This document shows positions 24,926-59,940 of a DNA stretch of 64,000 bases, piece by piece. The notes below the pieces were generated by a model. That model had not been told where the DNA came from. It was given only the letters and a program-made list of their open reading frames with translations, and made no database searches. Position numbers and translations under genes: made by a program. This DNA comes from Sphingomonas sp. LT1P40 (GTDB taxonomy: Bacteria; Pseudomonadota; Alphaproteobacteria; Sphingomonadales; Sphingomonadaceae), in contig NZ_JAXOJT010000001.1 of NCBI RefSeq assembly GCF_036663835.1, positions 2,108,001-2,172,000 on the forward strand, written 5' to 3'. The number at the start of each line of letters is the position of its first letter. Within the stretch, counting starts at the first letter, position 1.

Positions 24926-24962
24926 AAAAAAAGCCCGCCGCGCCGGAGAGGCGCGACGGGTT
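24926..24962 (-). terminator. Terminator of the GH2 gene
   Basis: Read on the minus strand: cccgtcgcgcc-tctcc-ggcgcggcggg followed by TTTTTTT. The GC stem has one mismatch and the T-run is long. It ends the GH28-GH2 transcript and lies between convergent genes. Confidence 0.8.
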
Positions 24963-24983: not shown

Positions 24984-27056
24984 TTATGGCCGCGTGGCAA
25001 AACGCCAGGTGACGTTGTCGGTGAGGGTTGTGCCGCCCGCAGCACGCCCGCGCGCCTCGACGCGGTTCTCGCCCTTGGTCAGCTCGATCGTCCATGTCGC
25101 CATGCGATCGGTCACCGGCACCGTCTTCCACGCACCGCCGTTCAGCCGCAGCTCGATCGTGGGCAGGTTGGAGAACACCATGACCTTCACCTGGCTGGTC
25201 CGCTTGTCCACGTCGCGGCGGCTGGTGATGTGCAGCATCGGCTTCTCGGCCCAGTTGGCCTGATACCAATAGTACGCATCCTTCTTCGTCTGTCGATCCT
25301 CGGTCACCAGCCCCTTGTCGTTGATCGCCGGGCGGTCGCCCTCGTTGCGCTTGAACGACGGGAAATCGATGCCCAGCCAGATGAAGGTCGACCACAGGAA
25401 CGGCCGCTTCTTCATTTCCAGCCAATGCTTGACGTGGAAATCGGTCTGATACTGCTCCGGATGCCAGTAACCGTTGGACTCGGGGCGTTTCACCACCGGG
25501 TCTTCCTGATGCAGGATCGAGGCGCCCGCGCCATATTCGCTGACGCCGATCGGGCGGGTCGGCATCTTCGCGTGCAGCTCGTCCGCCCACGGCCCGATGT
25601 CCTCCGACTTGGTCCAGTACCAGCCGAAATAGCGGTTGTACGACACCGTATCGCTGTGCAGCGCGATCGGGTCGTTGTCGTCCAGACAGCAATGCGCGTA
25701 GGTCGTCGGGCGCCACGGATCGAGCGTTTTGGCGGTCGTGTTCAGCTCGGCCAGGATGCGGTTCGACGCCGCATCCGACTTGCGGATTTCGTTGCCGATA
25801 CCCCAGAGCGCGACCGAGGGATTGTTGAACGTCTGCGCGATCAGCTCGCGCATCTGCGCCACCAGATTGATACGGAATGCGTCCGACTGATCATGGTCGT
25901 CGATCAGCGGCACTTCGGTCAGCAACAGGATGCCGAGCTCGTCGGCGCGGTCGTACACCCGCTGCGGGTGCTGCATATGCGCGAGGCGAATGGCGGTGAC
26001 GCCCATCTCGTCCATCAGTTGCAGGTCCTCATCGATCTCAGCCTGAGTGACGATCGGTCCGCGACCATAGCGCGACGGGTGCTGGAGGTTGACGCCGTAG
26101 AGCGGGTAACGCTTGCCGTTGAGCAGCACGGTGCCGTCCTGCTTCACCGCGATGGTGCGAACGCCCAGCGGCACCGACTGGCTGTCGATCGTGCGACCGT
26201 TGGCCACCACGTCGCTGACGACGCGGTAGAGATAGGCGGATTTGCGCCCCTCCCACAATTTCGGCGATTTCAGCGTGAACTTCTGTTCCGCCGTGCCGCG
26301 CGCGCCGGGGGCGAGCGTCAGCGGGCTGCGCTGCGTCGCCACTGCTTTGCCGGTCGCATCTAGAATGCGGGTGACGATCTGAAAGCTGGCTGGCGCGGCG
26401 CGATCATTGACTACCGCCACCGTCGCGCCGATCGTGGCAGCGTTCTTGCCCAGCGCTTCCGTCCGCGCCCTGATCCCCGGTCCCGCATGATCGAGCCGGT
26501 CGAGATGCAACTCGGGCGTCGCGATCAGCTTCACCTCACGATACAGCCCGCCAAAGATATTGAAGTCGCCGTTGAGCGGCGAGATTTGCGGGTTCTTCGC
26601 ATTGTCCACACGCACCGCGAGCAGGTTTTCGCCCGCCTTCAGGCTGCTGGTCACATCGAACCGGAACGCGGCATAGCCACCGGCATGGCCGCCCACCTTC
26701 GTGCCGTTCAGCCACACATCGGCCTTCAGCGTCGCGCCGCCGAAATGCAGCAGATAGCGGGTGCCGGGTTGCGGCTTGTGGTCGATCTTCAGGCGATACC
26801 AGGCGGGACCGCGATAATAGACACCCTCCGGCTCGCCGCGCGCCTTCGCCCCGCCGATCCCCGAATCCTCGGCATTATAGGTATGCGGCACCGCGACCCG
26901 CGCCCAACGCGCATCGTCGAAGCCGGGGCGTTCCGCGCCCTTTGCATCGTCCTTCACGAAACGCCAGCCTTCGGCCAGCGGCAGTTCCTGTGCAACCACC
27001 GGCACGGCGATCAGCGCCGTCAGCCATGCCAGAATAAGTCCGATCCGTTTCATCAT
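24984..27056 (-). CDS. GH2 glycoside hydrolase
   Basis: 690 residues; Sec signal IGLILAWLTALIAVPVVAQ. GH2 architecture: sugar-binding jelly-roll (PGFDDARWARVAVPHTYN, WYRLKIDHKP, VWLNGTKVGGHAGGYAAFRFD), Ig-like domain, and TIM barrel with KRYPLYGVNLQHPS, acid/base Glu in LWGIGNEIRKS and nucleophile Glu in IGVSEYGAGAS. A C-terminal Ig-like domain follows. GH2 members include beta-galactosidase, beta-glucuronidase and arabinopyranosidase; specificity is not evident here. Its ATG overlaps the stop of the GH28 copy 2 gene, so the two act together on a pectic oligomer. Confidence 0.93.
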   Translation of the reverse strand: MMKRIGLILAWLTALIAVPVVAQELPLAEGWRFVKDDAKGAERPGFDDARWARVAVPHTYNAEDSGIGGAKARGEPEGVYYRGPAWYRLKIDHKPQPGTRYLLHFGGATLKADVWLNGTKVGGHAGGYAAFRFDVTSSLKAGENLLAVRVDNAKNPQISPLNGDFNIFGGLYREVKLIATPELHLDRLDHAGPGIRARTEALGKNAATIGATVAVVNDRAAPASFQIVTRILDATGKAVATQRSPLTLAPGARGTAEQKFTLKSPKLWEGRKSAYLYRVVSDVVANGRTIDSQSVPLGVRTIAVKQDGTVLLNGKRYPLYGVNLQHPSRYGRGPIVTQAEIDEDLQLMDEMGVTAIRLAHMQHPQRVYDRADELGILLLTEVPLIDDHDQSDAFRINLVAQMRELIAQTFNNPSVALWGIGNEIRKSDAASNRILAELNTTAKTLDPWRPTTYAHCCLDDNDPIALHSDTVSYNRYFGWYWTKSEDIGPWADELHAKMPTRPIGVSEYGAGASILHQEDPVVKRPESNGYWHPEQYQTDFHVKHWLEMKKRPFLWSTFIWLGIDFPSFKRNEGDRPAINDKGLVTEDRQTKKDAYYWYQANWAEKPMLHITSRRDVDKRTSQVKVMVFSNLPTIELRLNGGAWKTVPVTDRMATWTIELTKGENRVEARGRAAGGTTLTDNVTWRFATRP

Positions 27057-28687
27057 GCGCCTGTTCCGACAAGGGTTTCGACCGATCCGATCGCGATATT
27101 GCGGCTGCCCGCACTGGCCCGCACTGCCGCCGCACGCGGCTTGGGCGAGCTCAGCCCGTCGATCACCGCGCCATCGACATTCTCCAGCACGATCGCGGGG
27201 CGCGCATCGGGTGTCGCGACGTCAAAGCTGCAATTGCTCACGCTCAGATTGCGGACGTGCCGCGCATACAGCCCATGCGCGGGCAGCGTTTTCATGAAGC
27301 TCGGCTCCAGACTCGAATTGCGCCGCTCCGGCACGACCCACGCCGCATCCTCGGCTGTGCCACCGCCTGCCGCCGTCACGTTCACGCCGCGAAAGCTGAC
27401 ATCCTCGATGATCCCGTCCGGGATACCCACGATGCCGCACGGATATTCCATCCGCGCGCCCGACACCTGAATGTCCGAAAAGCGCACGCGCCGAACCTTG
27501 GCAACGCCCGCCCCCCTCGGGGCGCGATTGCGGGCGGACAGGCGCAGGAAGATCGGGTGGTTGACCGGGTTGACCAGATTGATGTCGCGAAAGCTCACAT
27601 CCTCCAGAACCCCGCCGTCGATCGCACCCAGTTGCAGCCCGCGTGAATTCTCGCACAGGCAATCGGCGATCAGGATATTGCGAAAACCGGTCGCGCTGTC
27701 CGTGCCCAGCTTGATCCGCCCCAGCACCCCGACATTGTCGGTCGAGACATAAGGCGATTTCCGGTACGTACCGTCCAGCACGGTGCCGAGCAGATAGCCG
27801 CTGGTCTTGCAGCCGATGACCTGCACATCCTCACAGAACACCGGTTCCTGCAGTGCATAGCTGCTTTTCAGCACGATCGCGTCGTCCTTTGGCGCATTGA
27901 CCACGCAGTTGGTCACGCGCACATCGCGGCAGCAATCCAGGTCGATGCCGTCGCGGTCGGTATCCACCGTCAGCCCGTCGATCCGCACGTTGGTCGACCC
28001 CAGAACGTAGACCGCGAAATGCCCGCCCTGCAGGATCGAGAAATCCTTGAGCAGGACGTTGCGGCACCGCGTCAGTCCGATCGCCTTGATGCCCCGCCCT
28101 TCATATTCCATTTCCAGCGGGATTGCGCGGCGGGCGGCATCGGCGCTCAGCCCCTGTTCCTTCGGCGATTTCCAGCCCGCCAGCCCATGCCAGCGCGGCG
28201 GCGGTCCTTCACGATCCAGCCCCAGCCCGTGGATCAAACCGGTGCCGATGATCGCGATATCGCTGACCCCGTCACCATAGATCAGGCTGTTGTGAAAATG
28301 CGCGAGGCCGTAATCGACCAGCTGCTCCTCGAACACACCCTCGGGCAGATCATAGCGCCCCTTATGCTTTTTCGGGTCCGCCGCCTCGATCACCGATCCG
28401 GGCATCAGCACCAGTGTGATGTGGCTCTGCAAGCGAATCGAAAAGCACAGATAGCGCCCGGGCGGCACCACGATCGTCCCGCCACCTTTGCGGCTGGCTG
28501 CCATGATCGCGCGGTTGAACGCGACCGAATCGATCGCCTTGCCATCGCCCTTCGCGCCATAATCGCGCACGTCGTGAAAGCCGGTTAGTGATCCGGTCGC
28601 GCGCACCTGCACTGCGCTTGCCGCCATCGCGGCACCTACACCCAACAAAGCCGTCCGCCGACTGAACGCTGCGCGCGCCTCAAGCAC
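27053..28687 (-). CDS. GH28 polygalacturonase-like hydrolase (copy 2)
   Basis: 544 residues from a GTG start at 28687 with GGGAGAG upstream. Tat-type signal FSRRTALLGVGAAMAASAV. Same layout as copy 1: DVRDYGAKGDGKAIDSVAFN, DTDRDGIDLDCC, NAPKDDAIVLKS and GRIKLGTDSATG; again no GHG His (TSGYLLGTVLDG). Probably acts on alpha-galacturonosyl bonds in a decorated pectin; exo or endo action cannot be told. It is followed without gap by the GH2 gene. Sequence similarity to copy 1 is high along the whole length, pointing to duplication within the locus. Confidence 0.9.
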   Translation of the reverse strand: MLEARAAFSRRTALLGVGAAMAASAVQVRATGSLTGFHDVRDYGAKGDGKAIDSVAFNRAIMAASRKGGGTIVVPPGRYLCFSIRLQSHITLVLMPGSVIEAADPKKHKGRYDLPEGVFEEQLVDYGLAHFHNSLIYGDGVSDIAIIGTGLIHGLGLDREGPPPRWHGLAGWKSPKEQGLSADAARRAIPLEMEYEGRGIKAIGLTRCRNVLLKDFSILQGGHFAVYVLGSTNVRIDGLTVDTDRDGIDLDCCRDVRVTNCVVNAPKDDAIVLKSSYALQEPVFCEDVQVIGCKTSGYLLGTVLDGTYRKSPYVSTDNVGVLGRIKLGTDSATGFRNILIADCLCENSRGLQLGAIDGGVLEDVSFRDINLVNPVNHPIFLRLSARNRAPRGAGVAKVRRVRFSDIQVSGARMEYPCGIVGIPDGIIEDVSFRGVNVTAAGGGTAEDAAWVVPERRNSSLEPSFMKTLPAHGLYARHVRNLSVSNCSFDVATPDARPAIVLENVDGAVIDGLSSPKPRAAAVRASAGSRNIAIGSVETLVGTGA

Positions 28688-28751: not shown

Positions 28752-29537
28752 TCAGCTTACGACATGGCGATCGCTGTCGAGCCGCAGGGTCAGAGCGGCC
28801 CGACCGGGCATCTCGTCCAGGATTGCGCGGGTAATGCGCTCATAATGCTGGATGAAGCGCGCGATCTGCGCAGCATCCATCGCCAGCGCGGGATTGCGGC
28901 CTTCGCGGATCAGCGCGGCGCGCAGGTCATCCTCCTGCTGCGTCCGCCAGCCCTGGACGACTGCGAAATCGGGTGCGGCGAGCAGGATCAGCCGGTCGAT
29001 CTTCGCGAACAGCGTCTGATAAGGGCCGGCCAGTGCGGCACTCACCGCTCGTCGCCAAACCCCATCCGGGTCTTCCTCGCATTCGAGATCGTTGACCGGC
29101 ATCGACACATCGTCCTCGGCAATCGCGCCGACGCACCACCCCTCGAAGATCAGCAAATCGAGCGAGCCATCGACCCACTCGCCTTCCGGCAGGCGCTCGT
29201 CGCTGGCCTTATCAAAACGCGGCAAGCGCACGGATTCCCCCGCCTTAACCGCCGCCAGAATTGAACAGCCCAGCGCCACATCATGCGTCAACGGCACCCC
29301 GCGCGTGGCCAGCAGCGGATGAATCTCGCGCGCCAATTCGGCCCGCGCCGCCTTGCCCAGATAGAGGTCGTCGAGCGACAGCGTCGCGGCACGCACGCCC
29401 AGCCGTTTGATCAACCCGCGCGCCAGCGTCGACTTCCCGCTCCCCTGCGATCCGCAAATGCCCAGGATCAGCGGACGCGGCCCCTCCGCCAGCCAGCGCG
29501 TCACCGCATCGGCGGCGAGTTCAAGCGACCCGGTCAC
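28752..29537 (-). CDS. D-glycerate 3-kinase-like P-loop kinase
   Basis: 261 residues. Walker A GICGSQGSGKSTLARG; TLSLDDLYLGKAARAELA and HPLLATRGVPLTHDV, LPRFDKASDERLPEGEW, LLIFEGWCVG. This is the plant-type glycerate kinase family related to phosphoribulokinase, making 3-phosphoglycerate from D-glycerate. Last gene of the seven-gene minus operon; overlaps the hydroxyacid dehydrogenase gene by 17 bases. With that enzyme it would move hydroxypyruvate or tartronate-semialdehyde-level carbon into glycolysis. Confidence 0.88.
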   Translation of the reverse strand: MTGSLELAADAVTRWLAEGPRPLILGICGSQGSGKSTLARGLIKRLGVRAATLSLDDLYLGKAARAELAREIHPLLATRGVPLTHDVALGCSILAAVKAGESVRLPRFDKASDERLPEGEWVDGSLDLLIFEGWCVGAIAEDDVSMPVNDLECEEDPDGVWRRAVSAALAGPYQTLFAKIDRLILLAAPDFAVVQGWRTQQEDDLRAALIREGRNPALAMDAAQIARFIQHYERITRAILDEMPGRAALTLRLDSDRHVVS

Positions 29538-30477
29538 CCGGCTCCCGCCCCGCGAAGAACGCGTCTAGGTTATCAGCGACCTTCATCCCCATCGCCTCGC
29601 GCGTCTCCAGCGTCGCCGATCCAAGATGCGGCAACAGCACGACATTCTGCAACGCAATCAGCGCCGGTTCGACCTGTGGCTCCCGTTCGTAAACGTCGAG
29701 CCCCGCCGCCGCGATCACGCCATCGCGTAATGCCGCCGACAGCGCCACCTCATCGACCAGAGAACCGCGTCCGGTGTTTATCAGCACCGCCTCGGGCTTC
29801 ATCGTCGCCAAAGCCGCGGCGTCGATCATGTGCCGCGTCGCCGCCCCGCCCGGTGCGTGCAGCGACACGATATCGGCGACTCTCAGCAGCCCCGCCAACG
29901 TCGGATGATAGTCAGTTTCCGGCACGTCCGCCGCCCGGCTGCGGCTGTGTATCGCCACCGTCAGCCCGAACGCAGTCGCCCGTTCCGCCACAGCGCGCGC
30001 GATCCGTCCATAGCCGACCAGCCCCAGCGTTTTGCCGCGCAGCGACCGGCCACGCAGCGGCGTCGGTCCCCAGCCGCGCCATCGTCCGGCGCGCAGTTCC
30101 CGCTCGCCCTCGCCTGCCCGCCGCGTGGCCATCAGGATCAGTGTCATCGCGATATCGGCGGTGGCGTCGGTCAGCACGTCGGGGGTGTTGGTGACAACGA
30201 CGCCCGCCTCGCGCGCGGCGTCCAGATCGATATGCTCGAACCCGGCGCCGTAATTGCCGATGATCCGCGCCCGCCGCCCTTCGGCCAGGATCACCTCGCG
30301 CGTGATCTTGTCCGTCACGGTCGGGCAGACCGCGTCATAATCGCGCATCGCTTGGGCCAGCGCGGCGGCATCCATCCGCACATCGGCGTCATTCAAAGTC
30401 ACATCATAGCTGGCCGCCAGCCGCGCCTCGACCGCATCGGGCCAGCGTCGCGTCAGCAGGATTTTGGGCTTGGTCAT
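29521..30477 (-). CDS. D-isomer 2-hydroxyacid dehydrogenase (glyoxylate/hydroxypyruvate reductase-like)
   Basis: 318 residues. NAD(P)-binding GLVGYGRIARAVAERA; catalytic Arg in INTGRGSLVDE, Glu in LDVYEREPQVE and His in LLPHLGSATLETREAMG. Nucleotide-binding loop has HSRSRAAD (Arg residues typical of NADPH preference). It would reduce hydroxypyruvate to D-glycerate, the substrate of the kinase encoded next, or glyoxylate to glycolate. Follows the crotonase gene with a 9-base gap. Confidence 0.9.
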   Translation of the reverse strand: MTKPKILLTRRWPDAVEARLAASYDVTLNDADVRMDAAALAQAMRDYDAVCPTVTDKITREVILAEGRRARIIGNYGAGFEHIDLDAAREAGVVVTNTPDVLTDATADIAMTLILMATRRAGEGERELRAGRWRGWGPTPLRGRSLRGKTLGLVGYGRIARAVAERATAFGLTVAIHSRSRAADVPETDYHPTLAGLLRVADIVSLHAPGGAATRHMIDAAALATMKPEAVLINTGRGSLVDEVALSAALRDGVIAAAGLDVYEREPQVEPALIALQNVVLLPHLGSATLETREAMGMKVADNLDAFFAGREPGDRVA

Positions 30478-30486
30478 CCCCGCACC

Positions 30487-31257
30487 CTAGCGCCGTCGAA
30501 ACACCGGCGCACGTTTCTCCGCAAAGGCGGCACGCCCTTCCTTCGCGTCCTCGGTCGCAAAACAGATCGCCTGCAGGTCGCGCTCATACTCGATCGCCTT
30601 GTCCCACGGCATGATGTGCGACGCGCGCAAGTTGAGCTTGGCCGTTTCCGCCGCGATCGGCGCGCGCGACGCAATCGTCGCTGCGATCTCGGCAGCGCGG
30701 GCGGTCAGCGCATCGGGCGCGACAACCTCGCTGACGATGCCCCAGGCCAACGCCTGTTCCGCGCTCACCATATCGCCCGTCAACAGCATCATCGCGGCGT
30801 TGGACGGCCCCGCCGCATAGGTCAGCCCTGCCGCCATTCCGCCGCCGCCGATCCAGCCCAGCTTGATTTCGGGTGCCGCGAACCGCGCGTTGGTCGATGC
30901 GATGCGGATATCCGCCGCCATCGCCGTCTCCAGCCCGCCGCCCAGCGCATAGCCGTTGACCGCCGCCACCACCGGCTTGCGGCACGCCCGCAGTGCGTCG
31001 CAATAATCGTCGCGATTGCGGAAATCCCACGGCGTCGCATAGCCATCCAGCGTCGTGATGTCGGACCCGGCGGAAAACGCCTTTTCCCCCGCGCCGGTGA
31101 TGACGACGCAGCGCACCGCATCGCTGCCATTGCACTCGCTCACCGCCGCGATCAGCGCCGCCGCCATGTCGGGGGTCAGCGCGTTCAGTTTGGCCGGCCG
31201 GTTGAGGGTGATGGTGGCGACGAAATCCGCCACACCGAACAACAAGTCTGTAGTCAT
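30487..31257 (-). CDS. Enoyl-CoA hydratase/isomerase (crotonase) family protein
   Basis: 256 residues. Crotonase fold with the oxyanion-hole segments AFSAGSDITTLDGY and VNGYALGGGLETAMAADIRIA. The active-site region reads FAAPEIKLGWIGGGGMAAGL, with Glu in PEIKLG retained and the second Glu position as Gly. Family members hydrate, isomerise, hydrolyse or cleave CoA esters. Its presence in a sugar-acid operon next to a CoA-transferase suggests a CoA-ester step in breakdown of an unusual sugar acid. The start overlaps the end of the upstream gene by 4 bases. Confidence 0.87.
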   Translation of the reverse strand: MTTDLLFGVADFVATITLNRPAKLNALTPDMAAALIAAVSECNGSDAVRCVVITGAGEKAFSAGSDITTLDGYATPWDFRNRDDYCDALRACRKPVVAAVNGYALGGGLETAMAADIRIASTNARFAAPEIKLGWIGGGGMAAGLTYAAGPSNAAMMLLTGDMVSAEQALAWGIVSEVVAPDALTARAAEIAATIASRAPIAAETAKLNLRASHIMPWDKAIEYERDLQAICFATEDAKEGRAAFAEKRAPVFRRR

Positions 31258-32366
31258 GTCTCTGCTCCGGCGGGGTGGTGGTTGCGATAGAAGGTTTCGA
31301 TGTCGTCGAGGACGGCATCCGCCGCTTCCCGGTCCAGCAAGGCTGCCCGCAACCGCGCCGACGCCGCCGTCTGGAACGCAATCGCGCCGTTATGGCGCGG
31401 ACGCAGCAATGCCGCCTCCACCGTAGCCAACGTGTCGGCAAAGAAATTGCCCGTCGCCGCATTCACCGCCGGATCGCGCCATGCGGATCGCAACGCCGGT
31501 TGCCCGTCATGCTGGGGGATGAAACCGCGCTGCACCGGCTCCGACATCAGCCAGCGCAGATGATCGAGCAGTTCCGGCGTTAAGTCGCACCGCTTCGACA
31601 CGCCGATGCCGGTGCCGCCCAGCGTCGATCCGATACGTCCGCCGGGACCGGACGGCGCATCGGCAAAGCCGACGCCGCGCGTCGCGTAGTTCACATAGCC
31701 ATAGATGAGCGGACACAGGTCGATCCCCTCGCCGCGCTCAATCGCCCCCAGCATCGCGATCGGGTTCAACGCCTGCGCCCGCACCGTCACCTCGCCAGTC
31801 AGCGCGAGCATGATCCCATAGGCTTCGCGTGCAATCGCGCGGTCGACAAAATCGTCGCCTGACCGCCCGGCACCCAACGCCCCGCAGATCGACTGAAAAC
31901 TCAAAATCGCGTGCGGTCCCGCCAACGACAGCGCCACCTTATGCTGCGCAGCAAAGTCGGGCAGTGCGACCCACGAAATCGGCGGCATTTCGATCGCGTC
32001 TCGCCGATACGCCATCACCTGAGTCGCGGCATCCAGCGGCAACGCCCAATGCTGGCCCGCATAATGGTAGCTCGCCAGCGATGGCCCCGCGACCGCCGCG
32101 CACCAGCCCGCAATCTCGTCAGCGCTGAACAAGTTCTCGACCGGCACCAGGCAATCACTCGCGACCGCTTCGCCGACATGCGGATGGTCCAGCACCACCA
32201 GATCGTAACGCGCGCATAAATCGGCGATCGGGGCGGACTCGAACCCTTCCAGCGACTGCTTGTCCCACGTCAGCGACAACGCACCTGCCTGCGCCGCTGC
32301 CGCCGCCAGCGCGTTATAGCCACGTGGATGGTCCCAGGTCAGACCGCGATACGCCGGAATACTCAT
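31254..32366 (-). CDS. Periplasmic-binding-protein-like domain without signal peptide
   Basis: 370 residues beginning MSIPAYRGLTWDHPRGYNAL. The fold resembles extracellular solute-binding proteins of ABC sugar importers (YDLVVLDHPHVGEA, HWALPLDAATQVMAYRRDAI, IDLCPLIYGYVNYA, LGGTGIGVSKRC, HLRWLMSEPVQRGFIPQHDGQPA). No signal peptide or lipobox is visible, and no ABC permease or ATPase lies in the window. It overlaps the CoA-transferase gene and the crotonase gene by 4 bases each, so it is translated with cytoplasmic enzymes. It may have been recruited as a substrate-binding or carrier subunit; the function is unknown. Confidence 0.7.
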   Translation of the reverse strand: MSIPAYRGLTWDHPRGYNALAAAAAQAGALSLTWDKQSLEGFESAPIADLCARYDLVVLDHPHVGEAVASDCLVPVENLFSADEIAGWCAAVAGPSLASYHYAGQHWALPLDAATQVMAYRRDAIEMPPISWVALPDFAAQHKVALSLAGPHAILSFQSICGALGAGRSGDDFVDRAIAREAYGIMLALTGEVTVRAQALNPIAMLGAIERGEGIDLCPLIYGYVNYATRGVGFADAPSGPGGRIGSTLGGTGIGVSKRCDLTPELLDHLRWLMSEPVQRGFIPQHDGQPALRSAWRDPAVNAATGNFFADTLATVEAALLRPRHNGAIAFQTAASARLRAALLDREAADAVLDDIETFYRNHHPAGAET

Positions 32367-33556
32367 CCGTGCTGCTTGATCACGCCAGCCTCGACCAGCC
32401 GGTCGATCGCCGCCTCGTCCAGCCCGGCCTCGCGCAGCACTTCGCGGCTATGCTCGCCGACACGCGGGGCGCCGCGTTCGATCGTCGACGGCGTCTTGGA
32501 GAAACGGATCGGAAATCCTGGCACCTTCACCCGGCCCTCGCTCGCGTGATCATATTCGACGAACGTGCCGTTGTGCTTGATCTGCGCATCGTCGACCAGA
32601 TCGGCATAGCCATAGACCGGCCCCGCCCAGATATCGCGCGCGCGCATCGCCTCCAGCCACTCGGCGCTGCTCCGCTTGACCAGATTGCGCTTCACCGCCG
32701 CAAAGATGTCGTCGCGCATCGCCCAGCCGTCGCGCTGGTCCTCCAGATCGGCAAAGAATGGATCGTCGAACAATTCCGCCAGCTTGGCATAGGGTGCCAT
32801 CGCCAAGGTAATATACCCGTCCGCCGTCGCGAACACGCCATAGGGCGCACGGATATAGCTGTGCGCATGCGGCTCGGCAGAGCGCGTCTGCGGAACGCCG
32901 CCGACCGTGAACACCGACAATTCCTGCATCTGGATCGTCGTAATCGCGTCGAGCATGTTGACCTGAACCAACTGCCCCTCACCGGTTCGTTCGCGGTGGA
33001 AAAGCGCGGCCAGCGCACCCTCGAACGCCGAATAGGCGGTGATCGCATCGACCAGATATTGCCCGGCGGCGGATGGCGGCGCGCCCTCGATCCCTGCCGA
33101 CATCATCGCGCCGGACATGCCCTGCAACAACAGGTCCTGCCCCGGGTAAAAGCGATACGGCCCGTCCTCGCCATAGCCGGACATCGACACATAGATCAGG
33201 CGCGGGTTGATCGCCGACAGCGTGGCGTAATCCACGCCCAGCCGCTCGGCCACGCCGGGGCGGTAATTCTGCAGAAACACGTCGGCGTCCTTGACCATCT
33301 CCAGCAACAGCGCCTTGCCCTCTGCCGCCTTCAGGTCGATCGCCAGGCTGCGCTTGTTGCGGTTAAGCGACAGGAACGAGACGTTGACTTCGTTCCCCAC
33401 CGCACCACCGGCAGGCGCATGACGCTGCCATTCGCCGGTAGTCGGCTCCACCTTCACCACGTCCGCGCCCATGTCGCCCATGCGCTGCGCCGCGAACGGC
33501 CCGGCCATCGCGATCGAACAGTCCAGCACGCGAATGCCGCTCAGGATATTGGTCAC
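32363..33556 (-). CDS. CaiB/BaiF family CoA-transferase
   Basis: 397 residues. Class III CoA-transferase: GIRVLDCSIAMAGPFAAQRM, GADVVKVEPTTGEW, SLNRNKRSLAIDLK, catalytic Asp in YPGQDLLLQGMSGAM, and the C-terminal AGPVYGYADLVDDAQI. These enzymes move CoA between carboxylic acids through an aspartyl-CoA thioester. The substrate is unknown; in this operon the acceptor is likely a sugar-derived or branched hydroxy acid. It starts 10 bases after the SDR stop and overlaps the next gene by 4. Confidence 0.9.
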   Translation of the reverse strand: MTNILSGIRVLDCSIAMAGPFAAQRMGDMGADVVKVEPTTGEWQRHAPAGGAVGNEVNVSFLSLNRNKRSLAIDLKAAEGKALLLEMVKDADVFLQNYRPGVAERLGVDYATLSAINPRLIYVSMSGYGEDGPYRFYPGQDLLLQGMSGAMMSAGIEGAPPSAAGQYLVDAITAYSAFEGALAALFHRERTGEGQLVQVNMLDAITTIQMQELSVFTVGGVPQTRSAEPHAHSYIRAPYGVFATADGYITLAMAPYAKLAELFDDPFFADLEDQRDGWAMRDDIFAAVKRNLVKRSSAEWLEAMRARDIWAGPVYGYADLVDDAQIKHNGTFVEYDHASEGRVKVPGFPIRFSKTPSTIERGAPRVGEHSREVLREAGLDEAAIDRLVEAGVIKQHG

Positions 33557-33566
33557 TTCGAGTCCT

Positions 33567-34307
33567 TTAGTTCATGGTCCAGCCGCCGTTGACGTGCAGC
33601 GTCTGGCCGGTGATGAAACCGGACTCGTCGCTCGCGAAAAAGGCGATGGCGTTGGCGATGTCACCGGCATTTCCGCGCCGCTTGATCGACTGCGCGTCGA
33701 GCACCAGCCGGTTATAGCCCTCGGGATCGGGATGGATTTTCTCGGCGTCGGTCGGAAAGGCCCCCGGCGCGATGGCGTTCACGGTGACCCCATACGGCCC
33801 GAACTCGCGCGCCCACGCCCGTGTCAGCCCGACCAGCGCCATCTTCGACGCGACATAGGGCGACAGGTTCGCCCAGCCACCGGACAGCGTGATGCTGGAA
33901 ACGTTGACGATCCGACCAAAGCCCTTGGCCCGCATCCCCGGCAGCGCCGCCTGCACCGCGACGATTCCAGCATCGACATTGATGCGCTGAACCGCCTGAT
34001 GCTCCTCGATCGTGTAATCCTCGAACGGTTTCGAGGGATAGATCGCGGCGTTGTTGATGACGATGTCGAACCCGCCGGTCTCGTCGATCAGTTGGTCGAG
34101 CGTCGCGCGAAAAGCGCCTAGGTCGGACAGGTCGGCGGTCGACACGATTAGCCGCTCGCTTCCGTCCGCAGCAGCTTCCAGGGCCGCGACTTTGGCGAGA
34201 TCGTTGTCGATCGCAACGACGGTCGCCCCGCGCTCGATCAGCAACAGCGTGGTTTCAAGCCCCAGACCGCCCGCCGCGCCGGTGTAGAGGACCGTCCGGC
34301 CCTTCAC
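33567..34307 (-). CDS. SDR family oxidoreductase
   Basis: 246 residues. TGAAGGLGLETT nucleotide-binding motif, VAIDNDL, NNAAIYPSKPF, active-site Ser in VSSITLSGG and YVASK, then NAIAPGAFPTDAEKI and TGQTLHVNGGW. Likely an NAD-dependent sugar or sugar-acid dehydrogenase, for example oxidising an aldose made available by the mutarotase-like protein encoded just upstream (4-base overlap). The substrate cannot be read from sequence. Confidence 0.87.
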   Translation of the reverse strand: MKGRTVLYTGAAGGLGLETTLLLIERGATVVAIDNDLAKVAALEAAADGSERLIVSTADLSDLGAFRATLDQLIDETGGFDIVINNAAIYPSKPFEDYTIEEHQAVQRINVDAGIVAVQAALPGMRAKGFGRIVNVSSITLSGGWANLSPYVASKMALVGLTRAWAREFGPYGVTVNAIAPGAFPTDAEKIHPDPEGYNRLVLDAQSIKRRGNAGDIANAIAFFASDESGFITGQTLHVNGGWTMN

Positions 34308-35497
34308 GCCACGCCACCAATCGGCGGAAACACGCCGGATGGCACAGGATATTCGTCGGCTGGCTGCGTCGCCACACCCTCGATCCGCGCCACCGCATCA
34401 GCCACTGCGGCTTCGTTCGGCAGCACCCGAAACACGCTGTCGTAACGGCGCTCCTCGCCATGCTCCAGCCAGATCAGCTCGCCACGTTCTCGCGCGAAAT
34501 CCTTGCCCATGACGTGGTTGGTCGAGGGTTCGATGCCGACCGCATAATGGCCGGCGTGCAGATTCTGCCATTCGAACATCGCCGGAAATTGCGACTTCAG
34601 CGTTTCGACCTCGAACCCGAAGCCGATCGCCTCGTTCACGACCGCAACATTGACCTTGCCATTGCCATCGGTGGCCATGTCATGCTGCCAGACTTGCTCA
34701 TGGAAATTCACGATCGGCGCGGGGAAGGTACGATAGCCGGTGTTCTGCGCCCGATAGCTGTCGGTATGCGCCGCCCAGATCACGTCGCGGATCGGCGCGA
34801 CATAGCGCGATCCCTCGGCCACTACTGGATGACTGACATTGATGTGGTAGCAATACATATGCGGCGTGCGGTAGAATCCGTGATTGACCACGCGGTCGAT
34901 CAGCCGGATTTCATCGCCGCCGACGTCCGCCTCGATCCGCCGGATCAAATGCAGGTCTTCGCCGAAAACGGTCGATTGCTGGACGATTCCTTCCGCCCAC
35001 AACACGCAGTCGTCACCGTTCCACGTCTCGCCATAGCCGGTCAGCCGCGCCGGGATCGTGCCGACGCGCCCGTGCAGCGACGACGACACATTCGCGCGAG
35101 GTCCGTAGTTGTAATGCCCCGCCGGGTCGTCGTGCATGAAGAGGACATGGTCGAGGCCACAGGTAATCAGCAGCCCGGACATCGAGCGGAACCAGCCCAG
35201 CCCACCCTCGCCCTCATAATCATGCAGCCCCGGATTGCGAAAGCCGGACGGCGAGTGCCAACCGACCGCGCGACCATTATGCTCGCACTCGGCAATGTCC
35301 ATTGCGCGATCGATCAGGACGGTGAAGCGCAGACCGCTGCCGGTGCGGAATTCGAGCTGGCGCACGCCGCGCTCGACGCCGTCGCCCAAGGTCGACAACC
35401 GCACCCCTGCAAATTGCGAGAGCGCGCCGGAATGCGCGGAAAGGTCGCGCCGGGATATGCGTTTGCCGTACAGCCCTGGCACCATCCACTCCGTCAT
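34304..35497 (-). CDS. DUF4432/aldose-1-epimerase-like protein
   Basis: 397 residues. The DUF4432 family has the galactose-mutarotase beta-sandwich: SQFAGVRLSTLGDGVERGVR, TVLIDRAMDIAECEHNGRAVGWHSPSGF, SGLLITCGLDHVLF, HGRVGTIPARL and HMYCYHINVSHPVV, EWQNLHAGHYAVGIEPSTNH. Probable sugar mutarotase/epimerase or binding protein. First gene of the operon. ATG at 35497 sits only 6 bases from the type A motif; a second ATG at 35485 has GGAG six bases upstream and may be the real start. Confidence 0.85.
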   Translation of the reverse strand: MTEWMVPGLYGKRISRRDLSAHSGALSQFAGVRLSTLGDGVERGVRQLEFRTGSGLRFTVLIDRAMDIAECEHNGRAVGWHSPSGFRNPGLHDYEGEGGLGWFRSMSGLLITCGLDHVLFMHDDPAGHYNYGPRANVSSSLHGRVGTIPARLTGYGETWNGDDCVLWAEGIVQQSTVFGEDLHLIRRIEADVGGDEIRLIDRVVNHGFYRTPHMYCYHINVSHPVVAEGSRYVAPIRDVIWAAHTDSYRAQNTGYRTFPAPIVNFHEQVWQHDMATDGNGKVNVAVVNEAIGFGFEVETLKSQFPAMFEWQNLHAGHYAVGIEPSTNHVMGKDFARERGELIWLEHGEERRYDSVFRVLPNEAAVADAVARIEGVATQPADEYPVPSGVFPPIGGVA

Positions 35498-35503
35498 TAT
35501 GTT

Positions 35504-35517
35504 GTAAGACGTATTAT
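35504..35517. promoter_or_regulatory. Operator-like motif, type A (GTAAGACGTATTAT)
   Basis: Lies in the 73-base gap between the divergent DUF4432 operon and the mutarotase gene. It matches the GTATGATGTATTAT site of GH28 copy 2 at 12 of 14 positions. Could control both directions. Confidence 0.45.
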
Positions 35518-35570
35518 GTTTAGGGCAGGATGGCGCGCTGCGTCAATCGGCGCGAAGGGAGTTTTCGGAA

Positions 35571-35927
35571 ATGCCACTCGTCCGCCGCTGCTTTGCCGTC
35601 GATCTGCATGGCGATCCCGAGCGCATCGCCGCCTATCGCAAATGGCATGAACCCGGTGGCCCGCCCGCCGCCGTCAACGCAGCGATCCGCGCGGACGGGG
35701 TGGAGTCACTTGAAATCTGGTGGGTCGGGGACCGGTTGTTCATGGTAATGGAGCAGAACAGCGATGCCGCCCCGGATCCTACTGCCAAGCAGACGCGCGA
35801 CGCGGCCAACCCCGACGTTGCTGCATGGGACGCGCTGATGGCCGGATTTCAGAAGTCGCTGCCGTTCGCGTCGGACCAAACCTGGGTCGAGATGGAGCGG
35901 ATCTATGCGCTCAGCGAGCAGCCCTAA
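35571..35927 (+). CDS. rhaM: L-rhamnose/L-fucose mutarotase family protein
   Basis: 118 residues. The small ferredoxin-like fold of RhaM: RRCFAVDLHGDPERIAAYRKWH (catalytic His in WHEPGG), SLEIWWVGDRLFMVMEQNSD and the C-terminal WVEMERIYAL. The family interconverts alpha and beta anomers of L-rhamnose or L-fucose in the cytoplasm. GAAGGGAG lies upstream. The stop overlaps the stop of the convergent GntR gene by 3 bases (TAG/TAA share CTAA). Confidence 0.85.
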   Translation: MPLVRRCFAVDLHGDPERIAAYRKWHEPGGPPAAVNAAIRADGVESLEIWWVGDRLFMVMEQNSDAAPDPTAKQTRDAANPDVAAWDALMAGFQKSLPFASDQTWVEMERIYALSEQP

Positions 35928-36655
35928 CCCCTCGGCTGCGCTCGCCGTTTGTCCCACGATCCCGAAATATGCTCGCGCATCGCCAGCGCGGCGCGATCAC
36001 CATCGCCCGCCGCAATCGCCTCGTAAACCTTGCGGTGCGCCGCCTGTGTCGCCTTCACATGCTCGACGCTCAGCTTGCCGCTATACCCATGTGTGCGCAG
36101 CGCCTCCGATTGAATGCCGTCGATGATTGCCTTGCTCAACCGGTCGCCCGACATGCGCATGATGATGTCGTGGAATTTCAGGTCTTCGTGGATATAGGCG
36201 GAGGGCATCGTCACCAGCCCCTCCAGCGTCTCGATCTGTGCGGTCAGTTCCGCGACTGTGGCCGGGGTGGCATTGCGCGCCGCCTTGGCCGCCATCGCCG
36301 ATTCGAGCAGCGAGCGGACCTCCGACAGATTGTCGAGATAGGCCAGCCCCTCCTCGCCCTGGAACAGCGCCGACAGGATCATCGGATCGAGCATGTTCCA
36401 CGCGCGCCCGTCGCGCACGATCGTCCCGCGCCCCTGTTGCGAAACCACCAGCCCCTTTTCGGTCAGCGCGGTCGTGGCCTCGCGCACCACCGTGCGGCTG
36501 ACGTCGTACATGTCGCACAACATGTTCTCGGGCGGCAGCGCGGTGCCGATCGGATAGGTGCCCATCACGATGGCGTTGACCAGATCCTCGACCACCGCAG
36601 TTGACAGACGCGGGCGGCGGCGGACGCGCTGTGCGGCTGGAGTCGCTGTCGTCAT
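35924..36655 (-). CDS. FadR-subfamily GntR transcription regulator 1
   Basis: 243 residues from the ATG at 36655. N-terminal winged helix-turn-helix: LSTAVVEDLVNAIVMGTYPIG, LPPENMLCDMYDVSRTVVREA, LTEKGLVVSQQGRGTIV. C-terminal FCD ligand domain with the metal-type His/Asp pattern (EVRSLLESAMAAKAA, EDLKFHDIIMRMSG, AHRKVYEAIAAGDGDRA). Such regulators usually sense a sugar acid and release DNA. Convergent with the mutarotase gene and divergent from the enolase-family gene, with a type A motif between them. In-frame codons before 36655 do not look family-like. Confidence 0.92.
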   Translation of the reverse strand: MTTATPAAQRVRRRPRLSTAVVEDLVNAIVMGTYPIGTALPPENMLCDMYDVSRTVVREATTALTEKGLVVSQQGRGTIVRDGRAWNMLDPMILSALFQGEEGLAYLDNLSEVRSLLESAMAAKAARNATPATVAELTAQIETLEGLVTMPSAYIHEDLKFHDIIMRMSGDRLSKAIIDGIQSEALRTHGYSGKLSVEHVKATQAAHRKVYEAIAAGDGDRAALAMREHISGSWDKRRAQPRG

Positions 36656-36764
36656 CGATTCATCTCGCTCACGCCGCTCTCGCTCAAACTCATCCGCCCC
36701 GTGATTGCTGCCGAACGGTGGAACCGCAACCCCCGATACGTCAAGGGCTTGCAGATTTGGAAAG

Positions 36765-36778
36765 ATAATACATACTAT
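36765..36778. promoter_or_regulatory. Operator-like motif, type A (ATAATACATACTAT)
   Basis: AT-rich site in the 172-base gap between the divergent GntR gene and the enolase-family gene. Resembles the complement of the sites at 28712 and 35504 (ATAATAC followed by AT-rich second half). Position fits autoregulation plus control of the catabolic operon. Confidence 0.45.
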
Positions 36779-36827
36779 GTTTCGAGCAAGGGCGGATCGT
36801 GCGCCCGGATTTGGGGCGTCGTCGTAC

Positions 36828-37979
36828 ATGAAGATCACCGGATATCGCAGCCTGACGACGACCCACGACTGGGGCCGGCCGGTCGGCGACGTCAACGGTG
36901 TCGTGGACAGTGGTGTGACCGAAGTGCCGATCCTGTTGATCGAAACCGATGGTGGGTTGACCGGGATCGGTTTGGGCCAGCACCGCGATATTGAACGCGT
37001 CTTCCCCGCAGTGGAGGGGCAAGACCCGCGCGCCGTCACCGCGCTATACGATTCGATGCTGTCGCACGTGTTCAAGAGCGGGCACGCGGGATCGACCTAT
37101 GGCGCGATTGCCGCAGTCGATATGGCGTTGTGGGATTTGAAGGCGAAGATGGCGGACGAGCCGTTGTGGCGCACGCTCGGCGCGCTCGACCGCTTCGTGC
37201 CCGGCTATGCCTCCGGGCTTTGCTACGGTCTCGACGACCAAGCCTTCGCCGCGCATTATCACGGCTGGGCCGAACGCGGCTTCACCTCGGCCAAGATCAA
37301 GGGCGGCAAGGATTTGTCCCGCGATATCGACCGGCTGCTCGCCGCGCGCGATGCGCTGTCGGCCAACAGCGCCCGTCCGGCGATGATGCTCGACGTCAAC
37401 GAAGCGTGGAACGTCAAGCAGGCGATCCGCCACCTCGCACAGATCGAATCGCAACTCGACCTGACCTGGATCGAGGAGCCGGTGCGCCGCTGGGACGCCG
37501 CGGGGCTGGCGCGCATCTCCCGCGCATGCCGCGCCGCCGTCGCCACTGGCGAGAACCTCACCGGCCTCGACCAGTTCGCGCCGCTGTTCGACGCCAAGGC
37601 AGTCGATGTGGTTCAGGCGGGCAGCGTGTGGGGCATCACCCATTTTCTGCGCGTGGCGATGGCCGCGCACTCGCGCGACCTGCCGGTGTCGCCGGTCGGC
37701 TATGACGCCAACCCGATCGCCCACGCCGCCGCCGCGATGCCGAACATGATCGGGATCGAGGTGCAGGATCTGAACTGGCCCACCGGCATGACGGTCGATC
37801 AGCAGATCGGCGATGGCGGCATCCGGCTGGGCGATGCGCCGGGCCTGGGCATTACCATCGACGAGGCGGCGCTGGCGAACGGCGCGACCCCCGGCTGGAG
37901 CAGTGCCAGCGGCCCGCATCGCCGCGCGCGTCAGGCCGGATTGCGGCTGGTGCCCGACGGTCCACTCGCCGCAGAATAA
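36828..37979 (+). CDS. Enolase-superfamily sugar-acid enzyme (mandelate racemase-like)
   Basis: 383 residues from the ATG at 36828 (MKITGYRSLTTTHDW). N-terminal capping domain, then barrel with the KxK bases K156/K158 (SAKIKGGKD) and metal ligands D189 (LDVNEAW), E216 (TWIEEPV) and E242 (TGENL). The usual His-Asp dyad is not apparent: the PHG-type segment reads VSPVGYDANPIAH and the QPD segment reads VVQAGSVWGI. Expected to dehydrate or epimerise a sugar acid, but the altered acid/base set makes the reaction unclear. Followed after 21 bases by an MFS permease gene. Confidence 0.88.
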   Translation: MKITGYRSLTTTHDWGRPVGDVNGVVDSGVTEVPILLIETDGGLTGIGLGQHRDIERVFPAVEGQDPRAVTALYDSMLSHVFKSGHAGSTYGAIAAVDMALWDLKAKMADEPLWRTLGALDRFVPGYASGLCYGLDDQAFAAHYHGWAERGFTSAKIKGGKDLSRDIDRLLAARDALSANSARPAMMLDVNEAWNVKQAIRHLAQIESQLDLTWIEEPVRRWDAAGLARISRACRAAVATGENLTGLDQFAPLFDAKAVDVVQAGSVWGITHFLRVAMAAHSRDLPVSPVGYDANPIAHAAAAMPNMIGIEVQDLNWPTGMTVDQQIGDGGIRLGDAPGLGITIDEAALANGATPGWSSASGPHRRARQAGLRLVPDGPLAAE

Positions 37980-38000: not shown

Positions 38001-39260
38001 ATGGCCATAGCCGCCGACACGACCCCATCCTATGTGCTCGGCCCGCAGCGGACGAAGCTGCAACTGTCGCTAATGGTCAATTTCTTCCTGCTGATGGCGC
38101 TGTACAGCGGCGTGCTCGGCGTGTTGCTGCCCAACCAGATCGCGGAACTGGATGAGGGGTCAAAGGCGAACAATCTGGCGCTGCTGTTCGCCATTACTTC
38201 GGTCTTTTCCACCCTCACCACGCCGATCGCGGGCGCGCTGTCGGATCGCACGCGCAGCCGCTGGGGCCGCCGTTCGCCATGGATCGCGATCGGATCGCTG
38301 ATCGGGTCGCTAGCGCTGTTCGGCGTGTCGTGGATGACCAGCTTCTGGTCGCTGATGATATTCTGGGTGATGGCCACCGTCGCCTACAACGCGATGCAGC
38401 CCGCGATGACGACGTTGATCGCCGACCGTTTCGCGCCGGAAACGCGCGGCGGCGTATCGGGCATCGTCGGCGCGGGCATGACCGCCGGACTGACCGCCGG
38501 CACCGTCGTCGCAGGCTATCTCGCGGGCGAGCGGGTGCTCGCTTACGGTCTGTTCGCGCTGGCGATCCTCGCCTCGTGCCTTGCCTTTGTGCTCATCAAC
38601 CGCGAGCCGCCCAGCGATGCGATGCCGCGTCGGCGTATGCACTGGGGCGAGTTCCTGAAAGGCTTCTGGATTTCCCCGCGCGAGCATCCCGATTTCGCCT
38701 GGGCATTCGCCAGCCGCTTCTTCATTTACATGGGGTATCAGGCGGTGGCGGCGTATCTGCTCTACATCCTGCGCGACTATATCGGGCTGGGGAATGACGA
38801 GTCGAATATCGCCATCGCCAATATGGCGATCGTCACCTTGATCTTCCTCGTCATCTCCTCGCTCGGCTCCGGCTGGCTGTCCGACCGCTATCAGCGCCGC
38901 AAGCCGTTCGTCATTCTCGGCAGCCTCATCATGGGTTGCGCGATGGTCGCGCCGCTGGCGTTCCCGAACATGACCGGCATGTGGGCCTATGCCGCGATTA
39001 TCGGCGTGGGATACGGCATGTTCATGTCGATCGACATGGCGCTGATGACTCAGGTGCTGCCAAAGAGCGCGCTGGGCGACGAGGGCAAGGATCTCGGCAT
39101 CCTCACCACCGCCGTCAACATCCCCCAGATCATCAGCCCGATCATGGCCGCGGTGCTGCTCAGCGCGTTCGGCAATGACTATCGCGCGATCTTCTGGGCG
39201 GCCGTGATCTTCGTGTTCGGATCGGCGCTGTGCGTCATTCCGATCCGCTCGGTGCGGTAG
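38001..39260 (+). CDS. MFS sugar permease
   Basis: 419 residues with about 12 membrane helices. MFS signature between helices 2 and 3: GALSDRTRSRWGRRSPWI; second-half repeat GWLSDRYQRRKPFV. Start has GGAGAG nine bases upstream. Located between a sugar-acid enzyme and the TonB receptor, it probably carries a mono- or disaccharide released in the periplasm across the inner membrane. Similar layouts are common in sphingomonad carbohydrate loci, where MFS carriers take the place of ABC importers. Confidence 0.9.
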   Translation: MAIAADTTPSYVLGPQRTKLQLSLMVNFFLLMALYSGVLGVLLPNQIAELDEGSKANNLALLFAITSVFSTLTTPIAGALSDRTRSRWGRRSPWIAIGSLIGSLALFGVSWMTSFWSLMIFWVMATVAYNAMQPAMTTLIADRFAPETRGGVSGIVGAGMTAGLTAGTVVAGYLAGERVLAYGLFALAILASCLAFVLINREPPSDAMPRRRMHWGEFLKGFWISPREHPDFAWAFASRFFIYMGYQAVAAYLLYILRDYIGLGNDESNIAIANMAIVTLIFLVISSLGSGWLSDRYQRRKPFVILGSLIMGCAMVAPLAFPNMTGMWAYAAIIGVGYGMFMSIDMALMTQVLPKSALGDEGKDLGILTTAVNIPQIISPIMAAVLLSAFGNDYRAIFWAAVIFVFGSALCVIPIRSVR

Positions 39261-55631: not shown

Positions 55632-55632
55632 G

Positions 55633-57236: not shown

Positions 57237-57250
57237 GGGTCTCGTCTCTC

Positions 57251-59835: not shown

Positions 59836-59923
59836 CCCGGCACTCTCCCGAACCCACCGTGACCGGCGCGTATGTCATGGAATCGGGCTGCAACCGCACC
59901 CCGTCACGGCGGTCAATATAAAT

Positions 59924-59937
59924 ATTATAGTACTAAT
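59924..59937. promoter_or_regulatory. Operator-like motif ATTATAGTACTAAT, type B
   Basis: Lies in the 105-base gap between glcF and GH140; minus strand reads ATTAGTACTATAAT. AT-rich island in GC-rich DNA, with partial dyad symmetry and near identity to the site before GH127 (43059-43072). Likely holds the promoter and operator of the GH140-rhmD operon. Confidence 0.5.
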
Positions 59938-59940
59938 TGG

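Follow-up and report, generated by a model that had tools for sequence, protein, structure and literature searches.

Several described systems bear comparison with the operon examined here. One of them is the Weimberg pathway (xylXABCD of Caulobacter). Routes through 2-keto-3-deoxypentonate (KDP) have been described for Herbaspirillum (PMC6336799), and a report on carnitine metabolism deals with the cycling of coenzyme A (CoA) by CaiB and CaiD (PMC2131755). For deoxyribonate catabolism in Klebsiella michiganensis, it has been proposed that the sugar acid is processed as a CoA ester, with a CoA-transferase and a glycerate kinase encoded in one cluster (PMC6365646). The operon that we describe lies in a 64 kb stretch of the Sphingomonas sp. 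LT1P40 genome (NZ_JAXOJT010000001.1), referred to as the window in this text. It combines putative sugar-oxidation genes with a CaiB/BaiF class III CoA-transferase, a solute-binding-protein-like protein (SBPL) and a crotonase. We tentatively propose that these last three proteins could well act together as a CoA-dependent aldonate dehydratase.

The operon was compared with related loci, namely the best 80 of at least 528 relatives found by an SBPL scan of species genomes and picked by their likeness to the query. Gene content was determined by homology clustering and tblastn; for IlvD, UxaA, thiolase, ligase, enolase and 3-hydroxyacyl-CoA dehydrogenase, proteins of the Sphingomonas genome itself served as tblastn queries.

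The operon resembles the carnitine enzymes CaiB (crotonobetainyl-CoA:carnitine CoA-transferase) and CaiD (crotonobetainyl-CoA hydratase) in pairing a class III CoA-transferase with a crotonase, both with conserved residues. By analogy, if CoA were cycled from product to substrate, no ligase would be needed at each turn. It differs in its sugar-oxidation setting and in the extra partner of maltose-binding-protein fold. A CaiC-type acyl-CoA ligase (AMP-binding) was found in only 2 of the 80 loci, and priming would fall to succinyl-CoA or to a ligase encoded elsewhere. At most, the core would work like CaiB/CaiD; we do not class it as a cai system. Reminiscent of the Weimberg pathway are an SDR resembling sugar dehydrogenases, with an intact Ser-Tyr-Lys set, often an FAH protein similar to KDP dehydratases (42/80 within 12 kb of SBPL) and, together with FAH, a strong aldehyde-dehydrogenase match (11/80) that may act on alpha-ketoglutaric semialdehyde. 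The loci seem to depart from it in the dehydratase: relatives of IlvD and UxaA were found in none of the 80 loci and an enolase in 18, and the triad of CaiB, SBPL and crotonase stands in their place, although the window does have an enolase-superfamily gene. The deoxyribonate route of K. michiganensis likewise clusters a CoA-transferase with a glycerate kinase (an identity that is putative here), and its sugar acid is proposed to be bound to CoA. It uses a CoA-synthetase, a hydroxyacyl-CoA dehydrogenase and a thiolase, whereas relatives of these occur in 2, 1 and 0 of the 80 loci, respectively. A thiolytic or beta-oxidation route was rejected on the thiolase count.

The seven-gene operon and its relatives

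A sequence-only reading of the window had joined seven minus-strand genes into one tightly packed operon, and the listing of open reading frames bears this out, with no overlap or gap exceeding 17 bases. The first gene (34304-35497) encodes an aldose mutarotase-like DUF4432 protein (PF14486, 315 bits) and the second (33567-34307) an SDR dehydrogenase (PF13561/PF00106), presumably an aldose 1-dehydrogenase. They are followed by the CaiB/BaiF CoA-transferase (32363-33556; PF02515, CoA_transf_3, 354 bits), SBPL (31254-32366) and the crotonase (30487-31257; PF00378, ECH_1, 205 bits), our candidate aldonyl-CoA dehydratase. A D-2-hydroxyacid dehydrogenase (2-HADH) similar to glyoxylate/hydroxypyruvate reductases (29521-30477; PF02826/PF00389) and a P-loop kinase (28752-29537) complete the set. 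From DUF4432 to the kinase, the junctions are a 4-base overlap, a 10-base gap, two 4-base overlaps, a 9-base gap and a 17-base overlap.

The first six gene identities of that reading agree with Pfam, SBPL marginally so (PF13416, 29.1 bits against a cut-off of 27). The best NCBIfam match of the 2-HADH is glyoxylate reductase, at 287 bits under a cut-off of 455. The last identity, D-glycerate 3-kinase, is plausible for the P-loop protein but weakly placed: its PRK and AAA_33 matches are weak (PRK 22.7 bits, cut-off 22), and it reaches no NCBIfam cut-off.

The 80 loci span Alpha- and Betaproteobacteria, Actinobacteria and one Acidobacteria bin, and include rhizobia, Azospirillum, roseobacters and Streptomyces. 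With its own genome counted in, SBPL was present in 6 of 61 relatives. At a threshold of E 1e-40 it was present in 6 of 385 genomes from the class, and at E 1e-30 in 8 of 200 from the phylum. One further family, with a rhizobia-like SBPL, had it in 53 of 199. Of 7998 candidates scored for the SBPL family, 4070 reached E 0.001 or better.

A neighbourhood search, as the sequence-only reading had suggested, found all seven genes, in any order, in 20 of the 80 loci, from Sphingomonadales, Asticcacaulis, Niveispirillum and Nitrospirillum. CaiB was found in 77 loci and the crotonase in 75 at a distance of no more than 200 bases from SBPL. Taken together, these counts mean that the grouping is more than chance, and CaiB, SBPL and the crotonase are the conserved heart of the operon. 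Within 12 kb of SBPL we further found an SDR-like gene (72/80), DUF4432 (58/80), a xylose-isomerase-like TIM barrel (29/80), Gfo/Idh (29/80), the kinase (21/80) and the 2-HADH (20/80). Existing annotation treats the core genes one by one, naming them CoA transferase, solute-binding protein and enoyl-CoA hydratase in several loci.

The three loci in which CaiB is not beside SBPL are L040, L041 and L078. The first two retain an SDR-SBPL-crotonase-FAH arrangement, and their genomes encode a CaiB of 74-75% identity elsewhere; a search of genome G700 for CaiB returned the same places as in the L041 genome, so these are probably the same genome. In the genome of L078, the closest CaiB elsewhere is only 38% identical.

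As to classical sugar-acid dehydratases, 62 of the 80 loci have no enolase, IlvD or UxaA match. FAH and a strong aldehyde-dehydrogenase match occur together in 11 loci, 10 of them free of IlvD, UxaA and enolase; the closest solved relatives of this aldehyde dehydrogenase are 3v4c and 1eyy. The Sphingomonas genome has two FAH homologues, both outside the window, and in both places a classical dehydratase lies within the 20 kb fetched: one is an IlvD, SDR, aldehyde dehydrogenase and FAH set (L114), the other has an enolase-like gene about 5 kb from FAH (L115). The 2-HADH and the kinase occur together in only 20 of the 80 loci, 10 of which also contain FAH, so the pair is dispensable for the core.

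In L046, L063, L096 and L100, among other loci, DUF4432 is preceded by xylose-isomerase-like and Gfo/Idh genes, which would suit an initial oxidation and splitting of a glycoside.

The CaiB-SBPL-crotonase core

The enzymes flanking SBPL keep the residues expected of their families. In the SDR, Ser138, Tyr151 and Lys155 are at least 97% conserved (61 sequences). The same holds for Asp170 of CaiB (83 sequences), which aligns with an Asp of solved relatives and is presumably the catalytic aspartate of class III CoA-transferases. Glu110 and Glu130 of the crotonase, which we take to be the catalytic glutamates of hydratases, are also at least 97% conserved (81 sequences). The crotonase was aligned with 3-hydroxypropionyl-CoA dehydratase (5zai). 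A highly conserved polar stretch from Leu70 to Asp87, including Arg80, Asn81, Arg82 and Tyr85, may line the acyl pocket. CaiB meets no NCBIfam cut-off (best 232.7 bits against 750), but its nearest kin in NCBIfam and the PDB are class III dicarboxylate CoA-transferases (SUGCT, mesaconate and formyl-CoA transferases). An AMACR-like racemase was rejected for CaiB, since its nearest relatives are transferases and AMACR scores much lower.

The AlphaFold model of SBPL (pLDDT 95.1, pTM 0.93) has a fold of the maltose-binding-protein type, with a TM score of 0.80 to MalE3. There is no signal peptide in SBPL, the first strand of the model starting at residue 5, and a hydrophobic N-terminus is absent from the 119 SBPL sequences surveyed (highest 12-residue mean hydropathy 1.73); the protein is therefore presumably cytosolic. 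It also differs from maltose/trehalose-type periplasmic binding proteins in being encoded between CaiB and the crotonase and in a set of invariant His, Arg and Asp residues. Among 76 sequences, the invariant residues include His13, Arg15, Asp60, His61, His63, Asp112, Gln116, Gln289, Arg322 and Arg324, a polar set that would suit an acid or phosphate ligand. A sugar acid is the more likely ligand than CoA, because the distant relatives L120, L121 and L122, which have no CaiB match, stand near enolase-like genes, as well as transporter genes. The CaiB-SBPL junction can be read as a 4-base overlap in 68 of 103 cases when the start closest to an overlap is picked.

Other arrangements of the family were also seen. 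The Sinorhizobium meliloti 1021 megaplasmid pSymB carries a CaiB-SBPL pair (732477-733577, L098) with no crotonase or MaoC match in the 21 kb fetched. An annotated relative gives the same picture, and L099 likewise pairs CaiB with SBPL and shows no match to either hydratase in the stretch fetched. L012 (8842-10032) and L013 (15690-16880) encode a second, different solute-binding-like protein in the same clusters, by eye without an evident signal peptide at the predicted start.

The hydratase position is where the core varies. We gathered 137 SBPL rows, removed 9 duplicate places (leaving 128) and then 6 identical sequences and one with a stop (leaving 121). A row counted as having CaiB if that gene lay no more than 300 bases from SBPL, and as having a crotonase if the distance was at most 1.7 kb; many loci covered only 4.1 kb, with 1.5 kb on each side of SBPL, and rows scored as CaiB only may conceal a more distant hydratase. 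CaiB was accompanied by a crotonase in 82 rows, by a MaoC protein in 18 and by both hydratases in 2; 13 rows had CaiB only, 2 a crotonase without CaiB, and 4 none of these. The midpoint-rooted SBPL tree falls into two clades separated at a branch support of 99. In one of them (90 rows) a crotonase was found in 84 and MaoC only in one; in its sister (31 rows) MaoC was found in 17 and a crotonase in none. MaoC, which has a fold unrelated to crotonase but hydratase chemistry, stands in the sister clade at the place that the crotonase holds in the other. Asp-x4-His, which we take to be the usual MaoC motif, is present in five of the eight sister-clade proteins whose active-site region is covered. 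Examples of MaoC-type triads are L116 (9864-12727) and L117, which stand with lactonase and ABC importer genes, and L011, L012 and L013, which have two CaiB genes.

A dehydration at the CoA level is suggested by four of these observations: the catalytic residues are kept, the core keeps company with sugar-oxidation genes, classical dehydratases are absent from most loci, and crotonase and MaoC exchange. In the proposed scheme, DUF4432 and the SDR would convert a plant sugar, through the lactone, into the aldonic acid. CaiB would load CoA onto the aldonate, the donor being either succinyl-CoA or, in CoA cycling, the product's own CoA ester; there is no ligase in the locus, so CoA would have to come from one of these. 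The crotonase, in the direction that we assume, would take the C2 proton and the C3 hydroxyl from aldonyl-CoA to give the enol of 2-keto-3-deoxy-aldonyl-CoA, and CaiB would hand CoA from this product to the next aldonate. SBPL may be the cytosolic sugar-acid-binding partner of CaiB. The net reaction would turn an aldonate into 2-keto-3-deoxyaldonate and water, as dehydratases of the IlvD/EDD, enolase and UxaA types do elsewhere.

Where the genes are present, the FAH-type KDP dehydratase would dehydrate the product, which would then be oxidised to alpha-ketoglutarate; the 11 loci with FAH and aldehyde dehydrogenase point to this end. In sphingomonad-type loci, the 2-HADH and kinase probably recover glyoxylate or hydroxypyruvate from a side stream and turn it into phosphoglycerate, the simplest reading of the two genes being a branch from glyoxylate or hydroxypyruvate to glycerate. 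The claims of the sequence-only reading fare unevenly here. Oxidation of a sugar, followed by activation as a CoA ester, is probable, and the crotonase retains both catalytic glutamates. The end point of that reading, 3-phosphoglycerate, does not hold as a general scheme: the last two genes are present together in a quarter of the loci and the FAH gene in about half, and the 11 loci that add a strong aldehyde-dehydrogenase match to FAH point to alpha-ketoglutarate. The reading had also held that no sugar-acid pathway of this form is known, and in the open-access literature, including work on DUF4432, sugar-acid CoA, aldonyl-CoA, apionate, FAH and aceric acid, we found no description of the operon; the CoA-bound breakdown of deoxyribonate (PMC6365646) is a precedent.

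Several points weigh against an aldonate dehydratase. The window contains an enolase, as do 18 of the 80 loci by tblastn match, and a classical dehydratase could do the work there. The window enolase shares an operator-like site with the operon (see below) and so probably belongs to the same regulon; if it is the aldonate dehydratase, the triad may serve as an epimerase or have a different acid as its substrate. The window has no FAH, only 8 of the 80 loci showed a lactonase, and a 2-ketoacyl-CoA intermediate is unusual. SBPL is not bound to CoA chemistry alone, as 4 of the 121 rows lack both CaiB and a hydratase and three of them (L120-L122) lie near enolases. The exchange argument is partial and weakened by MaoC proteins that lack the usual motif, which is missing in three of eight (those of L116 and L117, without the usual His, and the second copy of L103); most rhizobial MaoC sequences are cut short ahead of the active-site region, yet resemble the odd type elsewhere. 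Finally, the 80 loci are a query-like sample, and the absence counts depend on own-genome queries and on flanks that reach no further than 10 kb to either side.

Alternative readings and the substrate

The crotonase might instead split aldonyl-CoA by a retro-aldol reaction into glycolyl-CoA and an aldehyde, with glycolate and glycerate branches taking up the products. Retro-aldol cleavage is carried out by 4-hydroxycinnamoyl-CoA hydratase-lyase. The 2-HADH and kinase genes of the 20 loci would fit this, as would glycolate-oxidase-like genes recognised by eye at 59941-63814 of the window, and the deoxyribonate report offers a precedent for cleavage of a CoA-bound sugar acid (PMC6365646). We consider such a cleavage unlikely: it would leave FAH and the aldehyde dehydrogenase idle in the crotonase loci, and the sister clade replaces the crotonase by MaoC, a hydratase fold. 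We know of no lyase with the MaoC fold.

A second alternative concerns the substrate. The acid could be a branched one from rhamnogalacturonan II that is activated by CaiB and then dehydrated, either apionate or the citramalate-like diacid formed when aceric acid is oxidised. The kinship of CaiB to dicarboxylate CoA-transferases would allow activation in the style of citramalate and mesaconate, and in its gene content the window resembles a locus for rhamnogalacturonan II. A GH127 protein, a RuBisCO-like protein resembling OiaX (449 bits, under the cut-off of 700) and a two-domain acid-sugar kinase follow one another at 43183-47534, perhaps a pathway for a branched sugar (apiose or aceric acid) that adjoins the operon. 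A beta-helix protein at 18663-20648 is similar to the glycoside hydrolase BT_1002 and has kin in 19 of the 80 loci. By-eye likeness had suggested that the beta-helix protein of three Streptomyces loci is related to this window protein, but this was not upheld at E 1e-8.

The wider survey does not follow this picture. Kin of eight window hydrolases were found in all 23 sphingomonad-type loci (L014-L036) and in none of the 57 others (L037-L093, from rhizobia, Azospirillum, roseobacters, Streptomyces and further groups), which carry the core all the same; kin of the GH127 protein and of the protein at 58453 were found in none of the 80. FAH and the aldehyde dehydrogenase, moreover, match a straight-chain pentonate. 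A branched acid as the general substrate is thus unlikely. Aceric acid, which the sequence-only reading had guessed, therefore draws support from the make-up of the window but not from the related loci; it is possible but not favoured, and a commoner aldonate is more likely, because the core occurs in those 57 loci and GH127 kin in none. In Sphingomonas sp. LT1P40 itself, the substrate could still be aceric acid or apiose.

For the core in general, FAH and the aldehyde dehydrogenase favour a pentonate. In Sphingomonas sp. LT1P40, D-xylonate or L-arabinonate may be served by the separate IlvD-SDR-aldehyde dehydrogenase-FAH set (L114), since its own genome holds that set. A CUT2-type importer of Shinella, compared with solved sugar-binding proteins, gave many distant matches and no specific ligand. 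At 54720-63814, the window also holds genes that by eye resemble an oxidative pathway for L-rhamnose or L-fucose (amidohydrolase, SDR, FAH, enolase) together with glycolate oxidase GlcDEF.

It is also conceivable, though quite unlikely in our view, that the triad epimerises or activates a sugar acid in a CoA-dependent way: the crotonase and CaiB would dehydrate and rehydrate the acid and net dehydration would be left to the enolase or another enzyme. The enolase of the same likely regulon speaks for this, as does CaiD, reported as part of a carnitine racemase activity (PMC2131755), but the 62 loci that match no enolase, IlvD or UxaA speak against it. That unrelated enzymes merely share a transcript, genes for short-chain acyl-CoA and for sugars having come together by chance, has nothing in its favour beyond the view from a single genome and is highly improbable, as the triad is found again and again, in Proteobacteria, Actinobacteria and one bin of Acidobacteria, and the CaiB-SBPL junction can be read as a 4-base overlap in about two-thirds of cases.

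Regulatory context and implications

The transcript probably extends past the seven genes. After a 64-base gap, the kinase is followed on the minus strand by a gene for a GH28-like secreted protein (27053-28687, kin in 14/80 loci), which overlaps by 4 bases with that of a GH2-like secreted protein (24984-27056, kin in 9/80); both families were assigned by eye. Behind this probable last gene, a terminator-like hairpin on the minus strand (24934-24960) has an 11-pair stem and a T run. Terminator-like sites are not enriched in the window (5 found against 6.7 in shuffles), so its location and stem are what support it. Promoter-like sites are not enriched either (2 found, 2.3 expected).

Upstream of DUF4432, a RhaM-like protein of the L-rhamnose mutarotase family (118 aa) is encoded on the plus strand (35571-35927); it shares 69% identity with a PF05336 protein of L016 and has kin in 16 of the 80 loci. 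Next to it, a GntR/FCD regulator (35924-36700, minus strand; PF07729, PF00392) diverges from the enolase-superfamily gene (36825-37979, plus strand; PF13378, 152 bits), whose product is a possible sugar-acid dehydratase, and an MFS transporter gene follows (38001-39260, plus strand; PF07690).

Two operator-like palindromes of the motif ACATAnTATGT link these genes: one with a single mismatch upstream of DUF4432 (35509-35519) and an exact one between the GntR and enolase genes (36770-36780). At one mismatch or fewer, these are the 2 matches in 64 kb, against 0.20 expected, and two or more were seen in 1 of 100 shuffles. A scan of 17 related loci (L008 and L014 being the same place), done without a shuffle control, found the palindrome, one mismatch allowed, between the enolase and GntR genes in L015, L016 and L025, just past the enolase in L021 and before DUF4432 in L016. 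It also occurred just past the far end of the MFS gene in L014, L015, L016, L021, L022, L025 and L028, while in L009, L019 and L020 it precedes the GH28-like gene; L010, L017, L018, L023 and L027 gave no match. By this placement in the window and the related loci, the operon, the enolase-MFS pair and some of the hydrolases look like a single regulon.

A broader proposal, which we regard as doubtful, is that the core represents a further solution to sugar-acid dehydration beside IlvD/EDD, enolase and UxaA/GarD, in which the acid would be placed on CoA and a borrowed enoyl-CoA hydratase would do the work, a crotonase for 3S acids and MaoC for 3R acids, with a cytosolic offshoot of the maltose-binding proteins as CoA-transferase subunit or substrate donor. 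Crotonases usually prefer 3S and MaoC proteins 3R substrates. If this preference is retained, the crotonase triad would serve 3S aldonates (the D-xylonate, L-arabinonate, D-lyxonate or L-ribonate type) and the MaoC triad 3R aldonates (the D-ribonate, D-arabinonate, L-xylonate or L-lyxonate type), so that the exchange of crotonase for MaoC yields a stereochemical prediction. If the proposal is true, a CoA-based route would join a central reaction of carbohydrate catabolism. It would explain several hundred loci in soil and plant-associated bacteria (at least 528 relatives in the SBPL scan), and it would give a family of signal-less solute-binding proteins its first setting.

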